Assembly (NCBI GenBank): GCA_002923195.1
Contig: BDTH01000069.1
Location: 1-38,526, forward strand
DNA length: 38,526 nt
Source: a bacterium BMS3Abin15
GTDB lineage: Bacteria; Patescibacteriota; Minisyncoccia; Moranbacterales; 2-12-FULL-40-10
Reading direction: 5' to 3'
Part shown: positions 112 through 16,020 of the stretch, in pieces
Numbering within the stretch: the first letter of the stretch is position 1
Layout of the letters: every line of letters begins with the position of its first letter
Program-made: the position numbers and the translations under genes
The notes under the pieces: generated by a model
Told to the model about the DNA's origin: nothing
The model's input: the letters and a program-made list of their open reading frames with translations, nothing else
Databases searched by the model: none

Positions 112-2388
112 TTATATCTTCTCCAATAGGGCGTGTTCGGTGGAAAGTCTTCTTATTCCCTGTTTTTTAAAAGCCACTATTACGACATCTTCTTCAGTAG
201 AAACGACCATCCCTTCTCCAAAATCAGGATGCTTTACTTTATCGCCATCCTTTAATTCGGTATTATGTATTTTGCCGCGCCCGCCAAAGCTGAGCTTGGG
301 CGATGCGGTCGGGTATGAAGTATTATGTATGTTTTTATTTTGAGATTTGAAATTTGAGATTTGAGATTTCGCATTTTGAACAAGATGCGATGGTATATCA
401 TCCAAAAATCTTGACGGAGGATTCATTTGGGTCGTGCCAAAAATATTCCTCTGTTGGGTAAATAAAAGGAAAACTTTTTCTTTAGCTCGGGTTATTCCCA
501 CATACATCAATCGCCTTTCTTCTTCCATTTCCAGCTGGGAAAGCGTGCTTCGAGAATGAGGCAGAATTCCCTCTTCCAGCCCAGTAATAAAAACAAAGGG
601 GAACTCCAATCCCTTGGCACTGTGAAGAGTCATAAGATGGACGGTATCTTTGTCCTGAGCAATATTGTCCGCATCGGAAGCTAGGGCCACTTCTTCTAGA
701 AATGCGTTTAAGGATGAACCTTGCGCCACCGCTAAAGCTTCAGGCGACACGCGGTCTTCTATGTCGTCATATTTTCTGGCTACTGATAGTAATTCTTGAA
801 CATTCTCCCATCTCGTTTCACCTTCTATTGTTCCGTCAAGAAGCACTTTTTCATATCCGCTTTCTTTGAATACTTTTCCGATGAGATCAGTAAGTTTAAC
901 TCTGTTCCTTGATTCATTCATCCGCTTAATGAAATCGCAAAATTTTGCGATTGCGTCTGATCTTACATTTGTCATTCCGAGTGAAGCCGAGGAATCCCGA
1001 GATCCTTCGACAGGCTCAGGATGACGCTTCGCGCCAATTTTAAGTCCGGCGTTAATTAAATCACTTTCTTTTTCCTTGGCAAGCTTTGTCCATAAAGAAA
1101 GTGTTTTTTCTCCGATCCCTCTGCGTGGTTCATTAATAATCCGCTCCAAGGAAATATAGTCGTTAAAATCATTAATTAGCCGCAGGTAGGCTACGATGTC
1201 TTTTATTTCCTTGCGTAAGTAAAATTTTATTCCACCGACAATTCTATAGGGGATGGATCTTTTTAAAAAAATTTCTTCAATAATTCTTGATTGGGCATTA
1301 GTTCGATAAAGAACTACAAATGAAGAATATAATCTTCCTCCTCTAGTTTTGTCTTTTACCTCGTTGGCAATAAATTCGGCCTCGTCTTTTTCGTCTTCTG
1401 CCTCATAAGAAGTAATGGGATGGCCCTCTTTTTTTTCGGTCCAAAGTTTTTTATCCTTGCGGTTAATATTTTTCGAAATTACGCCGTAAGCAGCATCCAA
1501 AATAACTTGGGTTGATCTATAATTTTGCTCCAGATGAATAACTTTCGCTTCCGGATAATCTTTTTCGAAATCGAGAATATTTTGTATATCAGCTCCCCGC
1601 CACATATAAATTGATTGCCAGTCATCCCCGACAACACAAAGATTGCGATGCCCTCGAGCTAATAGATTAACCAAAACATACTGGGCATGATTGGTATCTT
1701 GATATTCATCCACTAAGATATAGCGGAACAGCTCTTGGTATTTTTTCAAAATATCAGGGAATTTTTGGAAAACCTCCACTGTTAGCATAATAAGGTCGTC
1801 AAAATCCAAAGCATTGTTGATTTTCAATTCTTGTTGATATCTTTTATATACCTTAGCTACTGTTTCTTCAAAATATCCTCCCACTTCTTTTTCAAATCGC
1901 TCAGAATCTATAAGTTCATTCTTGGCCTTACCTACACTTTCCAAAAAAGAGCGCGGGCTAAATTGGTCTGTGTTTATTTCCATCTGCTTGAAAACTTTTT
2001 TCATTAAAGAGAGCTGGTCGTCGGTGTCAAAAATATTGAACGACTTTTTATACCCCAGTTTGTCTATCTCCCTTCTCAATATCCTCACACAAATAGAGTG
2101 GAAAGTTCCAGTTATGGGAAGCTCTGATTTTTTCAATTTTATTTGATCTCTCCTTATGCCCAGCAAATCAACGATTCTTTCTTTCATTTCTCCGGCTGCC
2201 TTATTCGTAAAAGTAACTGCTAGCACGTTTTGGGGATTGATATTTTTATCTTTTATTAAATAGGCCACTCGGTGAGTGAGGGTCCGGGTTTTTCCCGAGC
2301 CAGCTCCGGCAATAATCAAAACGGGGCCGCCTATGCTTTTGACAGCTTCTTGTTGGTTAGGATTAAGGGAAGTTAAAATATTGCTCAT
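112..2388 (-). CDS. uvrD: UvrD/PcrA-type superfamily 1 DNA helicase (contains in-frame repeat insertions)
   Basis: Walker A GGPVLIIAGAGSGKTRTLTHR, VDEYQDTN, LEQNYRST, VHLMTLHSAKGLEFPFVF, RRLMYVGITRAKE motifs. Confidence 0.96.
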   Translation of the reverse strand: MSNILTSLNPNQQEAVKSIGGPVLIIAGAGSGKTRTLTHRVAYLIKDKNINPQNVLAVTFTNKAAGEMKERIVDLLGIRRDQIKLKKSELPITGTFHSICVRILRREIDKLGYKKSFNIFDTDDQLSLMKKVFKQMEINTDQFSPRSFLESVGKAKNELIDSERFEKEVGGYFEETVAKVYKRYQQELKINNALDFDDLIMLTVEVFQKFPDILKKYQELFRYILVDEYQDTNHAQYVLVNLLARGHRNLCVVGDDWQSIYMWRGADIQNILDFEKDYPEAKVIHLEQNYRSTQVILDAAYGVISKNINRKDKKLWTEKKEGHPITSYEAEDEKDEAEFIANEVKDKTRGGRLYSSFVVLYRTNAQSRIIEEIFLKRSIPYRIVGGIKFYLRKEIKDIVAYLRLINDFNDYISLERIINEPRRGIGEKTLSLWTKLAKEKESDLINAGLKIGAKRHPEPVEGSRDSSASLGMTNVRSDAIAKFCDFIKRMNESRNRVKLTDLIGKVFKESGYEKVLLDGTIEGETRWENVQELLSVARKYDDIEDRVSPEALAVAQGSSLNAFLEEVALASDADNIAQDKDTVHLMTLHSAKGLEFPFVFITGLEEGILPHSRSTLSQLEMEEERRLMYVGITRAKEKVFLLFTQQRNIFGTTQMNPPSRFLDDIPSHLVQNAKSQISNFKSQNKNIHNTSYPTASPKLSFGGRGKIHNTELKDGDKVKHPDFGEGMVVSTEEDVVIVAFKKQGIRRLSTEHALLEKI
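971..1025. repeat. GTCATTCCGAG-type MITE-like repeat inside uvrD
   Basis: gtcattccgag ... ctcaggatgac. Confidence 0.9.
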
Positions 2389-2501
2389 AAATTATATTGT
2401 AGCATATTTTTTTCTTTACTCGGTTTTCTCTATGATTGAAATTATTTTTCGTTCCATTATTTGCCTTAATTTACCATAGTCTCTCCATTTTTCCTTCTGT
2501 C

Positions 2502-2537
2502 TGCTTGCATTATTCCCATACGGTAATAATGCAAGCA
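2502..2537. repeat. 36-bp near-perfect palindrome, copy A
   Basis: tgcttgcattattcccatacggtaataatgcaagca; same outer arms as 3346-3381. Confidence 0.95.
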
Positions 2538-2585
2538 CTAAAATCCCACTAACCAGTATACATTATCTGACTAAACATTTAGGAG

Positions 2586-3230
2586 TTATAATTTAAAGGC
2601 TCTTCTGATTTCCTTTTCATGCAACATTTTATCAACTGTAAAAATTTCTACGTATTTAGTTATTCTAAATATTTCAGAAATAAAAAGAATTTCGTCTTCA
2701 CATTCATAAGGAAATATCCAAACGCTTTTTTGCAACTGACGAAATCCTAATTCCTTTATTTTACGACGTAATGCCCCCCTAGCCCTATCCCGATCTATAG
2801 GAATATCAAAAATAACTATTCTCCATTTTCCATCCCAATTTTTTGGCTTACTGATAGTAATATCGTTCAGAATAAATTCTGTTACCCGTTTCTTTCCTTT
2901 ATTAGTCAGCTTGACTCTCGTCTTTCCATTATTTTCTTTAATTATCTTGATAAATTTTCGTTTTTTCAAACTAGACAGTGCATTACTGATTTGCCGTTTA
3001 TTATAGCTTTTTCTTTTTCCGTCATTGCTTTGTTGACCGAGCCCATCTAATGCTTTAAGGGTATTAGCCGCCACTGCACCGATAAAAACCAGTCCTCCCA
3101 TCGCCAAAAGCATTAGTAAAAATTTAGTTGCGGTAGCTGAGACACTATCGGAGTAGCGGAAATTTTCTATCTTTTCCGCCAGAGATATGCCAGTGTTTCT
3201 TATTTTATCCTTTTGGTTTTTCCCAGACAT
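2586..3230 (-). CDS. PaaX-like / Cas2-like-fold transcriptional regulator with N-terminal hydrophobic helix and winged-HTH segment
   Basis: C-terminal KWRIVIFDIPIDRDRARGALRRKIKELGFRQLQKSVWIFPYEC resembles the PaaX C-terminal/Cas2-like domain; hydrophobic stretch FLLMLLAMGGLVFIGAVAA; HTH-like QISNALSSLKKRKFIKI. Confidence 0.8.
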   Translation of the reverse strand: MSGKNQKDKIRNTGISLAEKIENFRYSDSVSATATKFLLMLLAMGGLVFIGAVAANTLKALDGLGQQSNDGKRKSYNKRQISNALSSLKKRKFIKIIKENNGKTRVKLTNKGKKRVTEFILNDITISKPKNWDGKWRIVIFDIPIDRDRARGALRRKIKELGFRQLQKSVWIFPYECEDEILFISEIFRITKYVEIFTVDKMLHEKEIRRAFKL

Positions 3231-3345
3231 ATTTTTTCAATTAATTTTTAGCAACTATTTATATTCCTGTATTTTTTAGCATTTATCACTGACCTAACAC
3301 TTACTATTCTTGGTAGTTGTAGTTGTATTATAACACATAACACAC

Positions 3346-3381
3346 TGCTTGCATTATTTCCATATGGAAATAATGCAAGCA
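3346..3381. repeat. 36-bp perfect palindrome, copy B (candidate operator)
   Basis: tgcttgcattatttccatatggaaataatgcaagca equals its own reverse complement. Confidence 0.97.
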
Positions 3382-3471: not shown

Positions 3472-5085
3472 ATGAAAACCTTAGAAAAAGTGATTGCTAA
3501 AATAGAAAATACTCCCACCAGTTTCCTCTTCTGGGTAACTTCTTTTTTGGGCTTGATAGCCGTTAGGCTTCTAATTGAAAATTGGCTAGGCGGTTTTCAG
3601 AATCGCTCAGGCTTATTTCTTTTTTATGAATTTGCTCATACCCTTCTATTTTTTCTCATTGTTTATTTCCTGTTTTTGGGAATTCTCGAGAAATTTCTGA
3701 AAATTGGTATCAAAAAGATATCCAACGTTTTGCTTTGGGGATATTTGATCATTCTCGCTCCTCCAATAATTGACAATATTATTTCAGGTGGAACTGGTTT
3801 TTGGAGTTTCTATGATTTTGGATCAGCCAGAGATCTCATTGGCAATTTTTTTACATTTTTTGACAGCACTCCGGAAATTGGAATAACTTACGGGGTCAGA
3901 GTGGAAGTAGCACTAGCGGTTATTTTCCTGTTAATATATGGCTACCTGAAGTCAAAAAATATTTTGAAATCTTTAACTTTGGCTGTTATCTCCTATACCG
4001 CTTTTTTTGTTCTAGCCACTGCTCCTTCTTGGATCACAATTTTGGCAAAAGGTTTTTTCAAGGGATTCTTAGCGGTGGGAATAGTTGATACGGCTCAAAT
4101 GTTCCTAACGCCCGCTAAAATATTTTCCCACGAAATCGTAGATATTATCAGTTCTTTGAATATTAAGATGAGTCTAATCTATTCACTAGTTATTACTGGA
4201 ATAATTCTAATCGGATTATTTTTTAACTATAAGGAAAAGTTCATATTATTTTTGAAAAACTCGCGACCGCCTCAACTAATCTATCACGGCGGACTCTTGA
4301 TTATAGGCGTCGGGCTAGGGTCAATACTAAACAATGAAGTGTTGGAAATAAATTTTTTCAACATTGTAAGCTTTCTGGTTCTGCTAATTGCAGTTGTCTG
4401 CGCCTGGCTGTCTTCAGTGGTAGTAAATGACCTGCAGGACAAAAAGATTGACGCGAAAACAAATATTGACCGGCCGCTTATCAAAGAAATATTTTCCGTT
4501 GGAGAATATAAAACATTAGGGTGGACACTTTTCTTGATCTCCATATTATTCTCATCCATCGTGAGTTTTAAAGTGGCCCTTTTGTTTATTGCTTACCAAG
4601 CAATAGCTTGGCTTTATTCTTCTTGGCCGCTGAGACTTAAAAGAATTGCCTTCGTTTCGACTTTTACAAGCGCCATGGCGTCACTGATGATACTTTTTTC
4701 CGGATACATTCTGATTTCACCGCTTCAAAATATAAAAAGTTTTCCTTTTGACATCATCGCACTCCTGGTTATTGGCTATACGCTATCTCTTCCCGTTAAA
4801 GATTTTAGGGATGTAGAGGGAGATAGGGAAAATGGAGTATACACAATCCCGGTTGTATTCGGAAATGAATGGGGGAAAATAATTGTCGGAAGCGGGATAT
4901 TTATCTCTTTTATTTTAAGCGTAGTGTTTCTTAATGAGTTCAAGCTTTTTTGGTGGTCAATATTATTCGGCGGAATAGCTTTTTGGACTGTTATAAAACA
5001 CAAAAATCCACGCACTTTGCCATGGTGGATTTTAGGGTTGGTTTTTATTTACGGATTAATTTTGGTAAAAATAATCCTTCTGTAA
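3472..5085 (+). CDS. UbiA-family prenyltransferase-like polytopic membrane protein
   Basis: VNDLQDKKIDAKTNIDRPL and VKDFRDVEGDRENGVYTIPVVFG (paired Asp-rich UbiA-like motifs), many TM segments. Confidence 0.8.
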   Translation: MKTLEKVIAKIENTPTSFLFWVTSFLGLIAVRLLIENWLGGFQNRSGLFLFYEFAHTLLFFLIVYFLFLGILEKFLKIGIKKISNVLLWGYLIILAPPIIDNIISGGTGFWSFYDFGSARDLIGNFFTFFDSTPEIGITYGVRVEVALAVIFLLIYGYLKSKNILKSLTLAVISYTAFFVLATAPSWITILAKGFFKGFLAVGIVDTAQMFLTPAKIFSHEIVDIISSLNIKMSLIYSLVITGIILIGLFFNYKEKFILFLKNSRPPQLIYHGGLLIIGVGLGSILNNEVLEINFFNIVSFLVLLIAVVCAWLSSVVVNDLQDKKIDAKTNIDRPLIKEIFSVGEYKTLGWTLFLISILFSSIVSFKVALLFIAYQAIAWLYSSWPLRLKRIAFVSTFTSAMASLMILFSGYILISPLQNIKSFPFDIIALLVIGYTLSLPVKDFRDVEGDRENGVYTIPVVFGNEWGKIIVGSGIFISFILSVVFLNEFKLFWWSILFGGIAFWTVIKHKNPRTLPWWILGLVFIYGLILVKIILL

Positions 5086-15980: not shown

Positions 15981-16020
15981 GAAATATAAAAAACCCGGCT
16001 AGCCGGGTTTTTTATATTTC
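15981..16020. terminator. Bidirectional intrinsic terminator between convergent pnp and PBP1A genes
   Basis: gaaatataaaaaacccggctagccgggttttttatatttc, perfect 40-nt palindrome with A/T tracts. Confidence 0.95.

Follow-up and report, generated by a model that had tools for sequence, protein, structure and literature searches.

Two nearly identical 36-bp palindromes lie on either side of a small Cas2-like gene in the stretch of DNA analysed here (the window, 38,526 nucleotides), and the question is what they are doing there. The original prediction regarded them as possible operators of a small regulon, in which a membrane-anchored PaaX/Cas2-like protein controls itself, the neighbouring uvrD and possibly ubiA, and named as an alternative that they bound a mobile unit of ~880 bp. 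The locus contains the following features.

2502..3381, minus strand: whole unit of 880 bp, palindrome to palindrome, around one Cas2-like gene; the arrangement recurs at most homologues
2502..2537, no strand: palindrome copy A, 3' of the Cas2-like gene, three differences from copy B
3346..3381, no strand: palindrome copy B, a perfect 36-bp palindrome, 5' of the Cas2-like gene
2586..3230, minus strand: PaaX/Cas2-like protein P0001, 214 aa (Pfam PaaX_M 3.6e-21, Cas2 0.001; AlphaFold2 model; PDB fold matches PaaX 8a39 and Cas2-type 3exc)
2907..3143, minus strand: winged-helix region, residues 30-108, which varies among homologues
2616..2843, minus strand: Cas2-like ferredoxin fold, residues 130-205, with invariant D142, R151, Q167 and S169
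3327..3332, minus strand: TATAAT, possible -10 of the Cas2-like gene, 13 bp from palindrome B, read from the sequence and missing from the output of the consensus promoter scan
112..2388, minus strand: uvrD, neighbour outside the unit
3472..5085, plus strand: UbiA-family gene, neighbour outside the unit

The window locus and its protein

The perfect palindrome at 3346-3381 and its near-identical copy at 2502-2537 were both confirmed; the two copies differed at three positions, and a similarity of this degree was reached in 0 of 100 shuffles. The predicted offsets of 114 bp (uvrD start) and 116 bp (PaaX/Cas2-like start) were correct, as was the minus-strand TATAAT at 3327-3332. The palindromes were located 48 bp past the stop codon of the Cas2-like gene and 115 bp past its start, on either side of the gene, and therefore bracket it. 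When up to three mismatches were allowed, no copy was found elsewhere in the genome (1.22 Mb, 114 contigs), leaving the two end copies only. The pair is most plausibly seen as marking both ends of a unit that contains the Cas2-like gene. Long palindromes numbered 23 in 609 kb of genome sequence, several of them beside Cas2-like genes, and a Markov simulation of 609 kb yielded none of such quality. An RNA element at the window locus was rejected since the element had no Rfam match. A separate 40-bp perfect palindrome at window positions 15981-16020, located between two convergent genes and containing a GC-rich core with A and T runs, is probably a two-way terminator.

The window protein matched PaaX_M of Pfam (PF20803) with 75.5 bits, above the gathering score of 24, and fell below the Cas2 cut-offs of both Pfam (19.6 vs 23.8 bits) and NCBIfam (20.7 vs 24.5 bits). 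No Pfam Y1_Tnp match was present in it, whereas the real Y1 RAYTs of the same genome did match. The AlphaFold2 model (mean pLDDT 82) predicted a winged helix followed by a Cas2 fold, and the PDB fold search returned PaaX (8a39), a repressor, as the best match and the Cas2-type structure 3exc as the third. The hydrophobic stretch that had been taken for a membrane anchor was modelled, with moderate confidence, as helix 30-45 inside the winged-helix domain, and a membrane-anchored regulator was rejected on this ground. D142, the counterpart of the Cas2 strand-1 aspartate in the alignment, was invariant in 84 sequences, as were W132, D133, R151, Q167, and S169; the conserved aspartate may be kept for structural reasons.

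The order of a winged helix and then a Cas2-like domain is shared with the PaaX repressor family (E. coli PaaX), but the window protein scored far below the cut-off of the NCBIfam PaaX equivalog (TIGR02277, 35 bits vs 264.55), Cas2-like genes sit between palindromes in many paralogues, and the window neighbours checked included no phenylacetate genes. With the Cas2 of CRISPR-Cas the protein shares the predicted ferredoxin fold, the strand-1 aspartate and a Q-S motif; unlike Cas2, it lies below the Cas2 cut-off and carries an extra winged helix, and in the loci read, cas1 was not noticed next to the gene. The repeats of the Cas2-like units also differ from a CRISPR array in being palindromes that occur in pairs, in arrays or alone.

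Matched palindromes at Cas2-like genes

Ten paralogues of the window protein were found in its own genome, homologues were present in 29 of the 57 genomes searched in the order (its own genome among the 57), and the family was detected in 45 of 145 genomes of a phylum-wide sample. Several paralogues of the own genome were flanked by their own long loop-less palindromes, which were specific to the gene yet matched at both ends of it, such as ATTAGTCAAATACTTGCATATGCAAGTATTTGACTAAT on both sides of the contig 39 paralogue and CGCTTCTATTCCTTGCTATAGCAAGGAATAGAAGCG on both sides of the contig 85 paralogue. The same pattern of matched ends was seen at many of 79 homologous reading frames. When 34-bp segments from the two sides of a gene were compared and 28 or more of the 34 positions had to be identical, a repeat pair was found at 74 of 90 homologues, which include orthologues from related species and are thus not fully independent, vs 6 of 150 control ORFs. 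Two of the six positive controls were Y1 RAYT-type genes flanked by their own palindromes, and the test therefore picks up a known system unprompted. When the repeats were also required to be palindromic, the counts were 44/84 for homologues vs 3/147 for controls. A repeat pair was present at 16 of 29 homologues in the phylum-wide sample, the more distant homologues being mostly negative. These results strongly support the tie between palindrome and PaaX/Cas2-like protein, and the bracketing at most homologues likewise strongly supports the alternative of a palindrome-bounded unit of ~880 bp. The search of the genome for the 36-mer, which the original prediction had called for, found it only at the two window sites; the palindrome pairs bracketing homologous genes emerged from reading the flanks of those genes.

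The two copies at the ends of a gene, where asymmetric, were in direct orientation in 41 cases vs inverted in 20, and some pairs were clearly inverted. Both-sided differences between two end copies kept the pairing in both copies in 17 of 27 cases; 101 one-sided differences show that decay of the palindrome is common too. The palindrome cores were common within subfamilies (GCATATGC, GCTATAGC, CACGGCCGTG, GCGACCGC and others), and palindrome similarity tracked protein identity (Mantel r=0.47, 0/2000 permutations). The mean identity among homologues was 26% in the variable winged-helix part and 46% in the conserved Cas2 part. The outer arms of the palindromes correlated with the winged helix, and with the Cas2 part no correlation was left once the winged helix was controlled for (partial correlations of 0.11, which is weak, vs -0.005).

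One palindrome family, ACATTCTCACATTCTNGAGAATGTGAGAATGT, was common to the genome of the window (L251:5555-5590, G000:C38) and genome G020 (L281:6956-6987 and L286:6185-6222). An origin of the Cas2-like family from phages or plasmids was rejected: a scan of phages and viral contigs found no member of it, which for the viral contigs is weak evidence of absence as that scan used a single short motif, and the plasmid search gave one partial match, on a Streptomyces record.

Dispersed copies, empty sites and the uvrD locus

Dispersal was counted in six species genomes from one genus of the same order, copies beside the gene included. The palindrome of one Cas2-like gene had 15, 10, 8, 6, and 4 copies in the five genomes with the gene, which lay at a contig edge in two of them; the sixth genome, without that gene, had two copies only, both degraded with 3 mismatches. 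The reversed-pattern control gave 0 copies. For a second palindrome family, 8 and 2 copies were counted in the two genomes where a gene was detected, and 3, 1, 0, and 0 in the others. The solo copies examined looked mostly intergenic and often adjoined palindromes of other families. In the genome of the window, the palindrome of the contig-16 paralogue had two further copies, one of them beside a NUDIX-like gene. At L110:1200-1500 and 2100-2300 (G020:C40), local tandem copies of ~64-bp units, each with a palindrome, were present on both sides of a Cas2-like gene and resembled the BIME clusters of REP systems. On another contig (G058:C21), two direct copies of a palindromic repeat at 4275-4313 and 5037-5075 had a spacing of 762 bp, and no Cas2-like homologue was detected in the intervening segment, which is perhaps another passenger.

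G020 carries the L101 unit, with ~1.24 kb between its palindromes, and G059 and G058 lack it at the orthologous intergenic position, so that empty sites do exist; the empty site differed by ~110 bp more than the palindrome-bounded unit. Intergenic flanks were too divergent to define exact ends or a target duplication at orthologous sites, and two flank searches for solo copies, hampered by the same divergence, found no base-exact insertion with target duplication. At one locus, genes of different subfamilies were present in two species.

A Cas2-like gene immediately precedes uvrD, on the strand that uvrD occupies, in the window (112-3230) and in G020:C38, G057:C68, and G059:C18, and lies ~1.3 kb upstream of it in G026:C66; these four genomes belong to another family than the genome of the window. 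The gene at the uvrD locus of G020, G057, and G059 had one palindrome family. In G026, a related gene at the same place came with an entirely different palindrome, of which there were at least four copies. Two of these copies enclose a 1.1-kb passenger that carries a methyltransferase gene, lies between the Cas2-like gene and uvrD (L009:150-1500) and is missing from the three congeners G020, G057, and G059. In the tree, the backbone support of which was weak, the window protein was not grouped with the uvrD-locus proteins of the other family. The uvrD adjacency might stem from a common ancestor followed by rapid divergence, from a preferred site or from a functional connection with UvrD.

Competing explanations and relation to REP systems

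The winged helix with a PaaX fold, the TATAAT adjoining palindrome B and the co-variation of protein and palindrome are all consistent with a family of PaaX-like repressors, each autoregulated via its own palindromic operator, with the downstream and solo copies as operators of small regulons. This main rival could be true in addition to a repeat system, and autoregulation by protein binding at the upstream copy B is possible. As the explanation of the palindromes it is unlikely, however, since the gene usually has another copy at its far end, arrays and solo copies lie at varied intergenic places, and whole units are present or absent; moreover, the distance from copy A down to the start codon of uvrD is 114 bp, and the consensus promoter scan found no promoter-like pair on the gene strand at either window palindrome. 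The predicted regulon of the gene itself, uvrD and ubiA was rejected as the main function because the palindromes follow the Cas2-like gene rather than uvrD, bracketing it at unrelated loci phylum-wide with locus-specific sequences and occurring as gene-free intergenic copies.

The excess of direct over inverted end copies (41 and 20) is what would be predicted if the palindromes were target sites, duplicated when an element with the Cas2-like gene inserted by another route (site-specific recombination at the palindrome), host enzymes doing the chemistry, and the G026 passenger with one palindrome looks added at a pre-existing palindrome. Yet some end pairs are clearly inverted, none of the empty sites showed a single intact palindrome, and the palindrome ends belong to the Cas2-like protein because they co-vary with it, which together make this explanation improbable. 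That the palindromes are ordinary terminators or chance repeats, their link to the gene being coincidental, is scarcely credible, for one terminator-like call at palindrome B (minus strand) stands against loop-less cores, ends that are alike within a locus, vary from one locus to the next and follow the protein in their variation, and control genes that rarely carry repeat pairs, a comparison that already contradicts it.

We therefore favour, as the probable explanation, that the window locus belongs to a phylum-wide family of small units in which a Cas2-like gene is enclosed by two copies of its own long palindrome, and that these units form a REP/RAYT-like selfish repeat system with a Cas2-like protein in place of the HUH transposase. 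It draws on the observed association, matched ends, co-variation, dispersal, solo copies in the own genome, gene-dependent copy number and presence/absence polymorphism, on the G026 passenger and the locus with different subfamilies in two species, and on the predicted Cas2 fold with its invariant aspartate. Against it count the confinement of the window's own palindrome to two ends, the lack of a base-exact solo insertion, the ~110 bp discrepancy at the L101 empty site and the distant homologues mostly without repeats; a regulatory role also fits the PaaX-like fold.

We infer that the protein itself binds and cleaves DNA and moves the repeats. A dimer of the winged-helix/Cas2-fold protein would bind the palindrome, the outer arms being read by the winged helices while the Cas2 dimer sits near the core. 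The conserved Cas2 aspartate would nick or cut the palindrome, perhaps as a hairpin extruded at replication forks, and repair or strand transfer would then copy it to intergenic sites elsewhere, at times taking the gene or a passenger along. By analogy, the Cas2-like protein would work like an HUH transposase.

RAYT/REP systems are recognized by palindromes on both sides of the gene, co-evolution, dispersed copies that depend on the gene, clusters close to it, and orthologues that stay in place while the repeats change (PMC2817692, PMC8266576). In anatomy the Cas2-like units match this description. As in the REPtrons of REP and TnpA-REP (RAYT), two palindromes flank the gene, dispersed intergenic copies and clusters near the gene occur, orthologous genes stay put while palindromes change, protein and palindrome co-evolve, and copy number depends on the cognate gene (in two families of one genus, the window palindrome itself being undispersed). 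Compared with those of REPtrons, the palindromes are longer, have no loop and carry a core specific to the subfamily, the dispersed copies number ten or so instead of hundreds, and the protein is a predicted winged helix plus Cas2 fold instead of a Y1 HUH transposase. The protein is not an HUH transposase, and the system is therefore not a member of the REP/RAYT family; we propose a selfish repeat system functionally parallel to REP and TnpA-REP/RAYT with a non-homologous protein. True Y1 RAYT genes exist separately in the window's genome, where two Y1 (IS200-like, RAYT-type) transposase genes at L271:4006-4650 (G000:C58) and L245:1619-2314 (G000:C32) each have matching palindromic repeats, so that classical REP-like systems coexist with the Cas2-like ones. 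The Cas2-like units resemble IS200/IS605 as small single-gene units with palindromic ends, often in the same orientation, but are without a Y1 HUH transposase and show no sign of IS-like recent gene proliferation.

No such system was found in the literature searched on Cas2 or PaaX with palindromes or candidate phyla, and the Cas2-like gene with its palindromes appears to be a selfish DNA-repeat system not described before, with a relative of a CRISPR protein at its centre. To our knowledge, no set of genomic palindromes has been linked to a Cas2-fold protein outside CRISPR until now, and this one would be the first. We hold it an even question whether a Cas2-fold protein acts here as a transposase- or recombinase-like enzyme on dispersed palindromes, which would define a whole class of selfish repeats unrelated to HUH transposases, widespread in a candidate phylum, possibly carrying passengers and bearing on the origin of Cas2 in DNA-end work. 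The many natural protein-palindrome pairs with different specificities offer a test of DNA recognition and processing by Cas2-like proteins. If true, the explanation would mean that the REP/RAYT life style had been invented independently a second time, and would give a function to a large family that models match only as "PaaX" or "Cas2".
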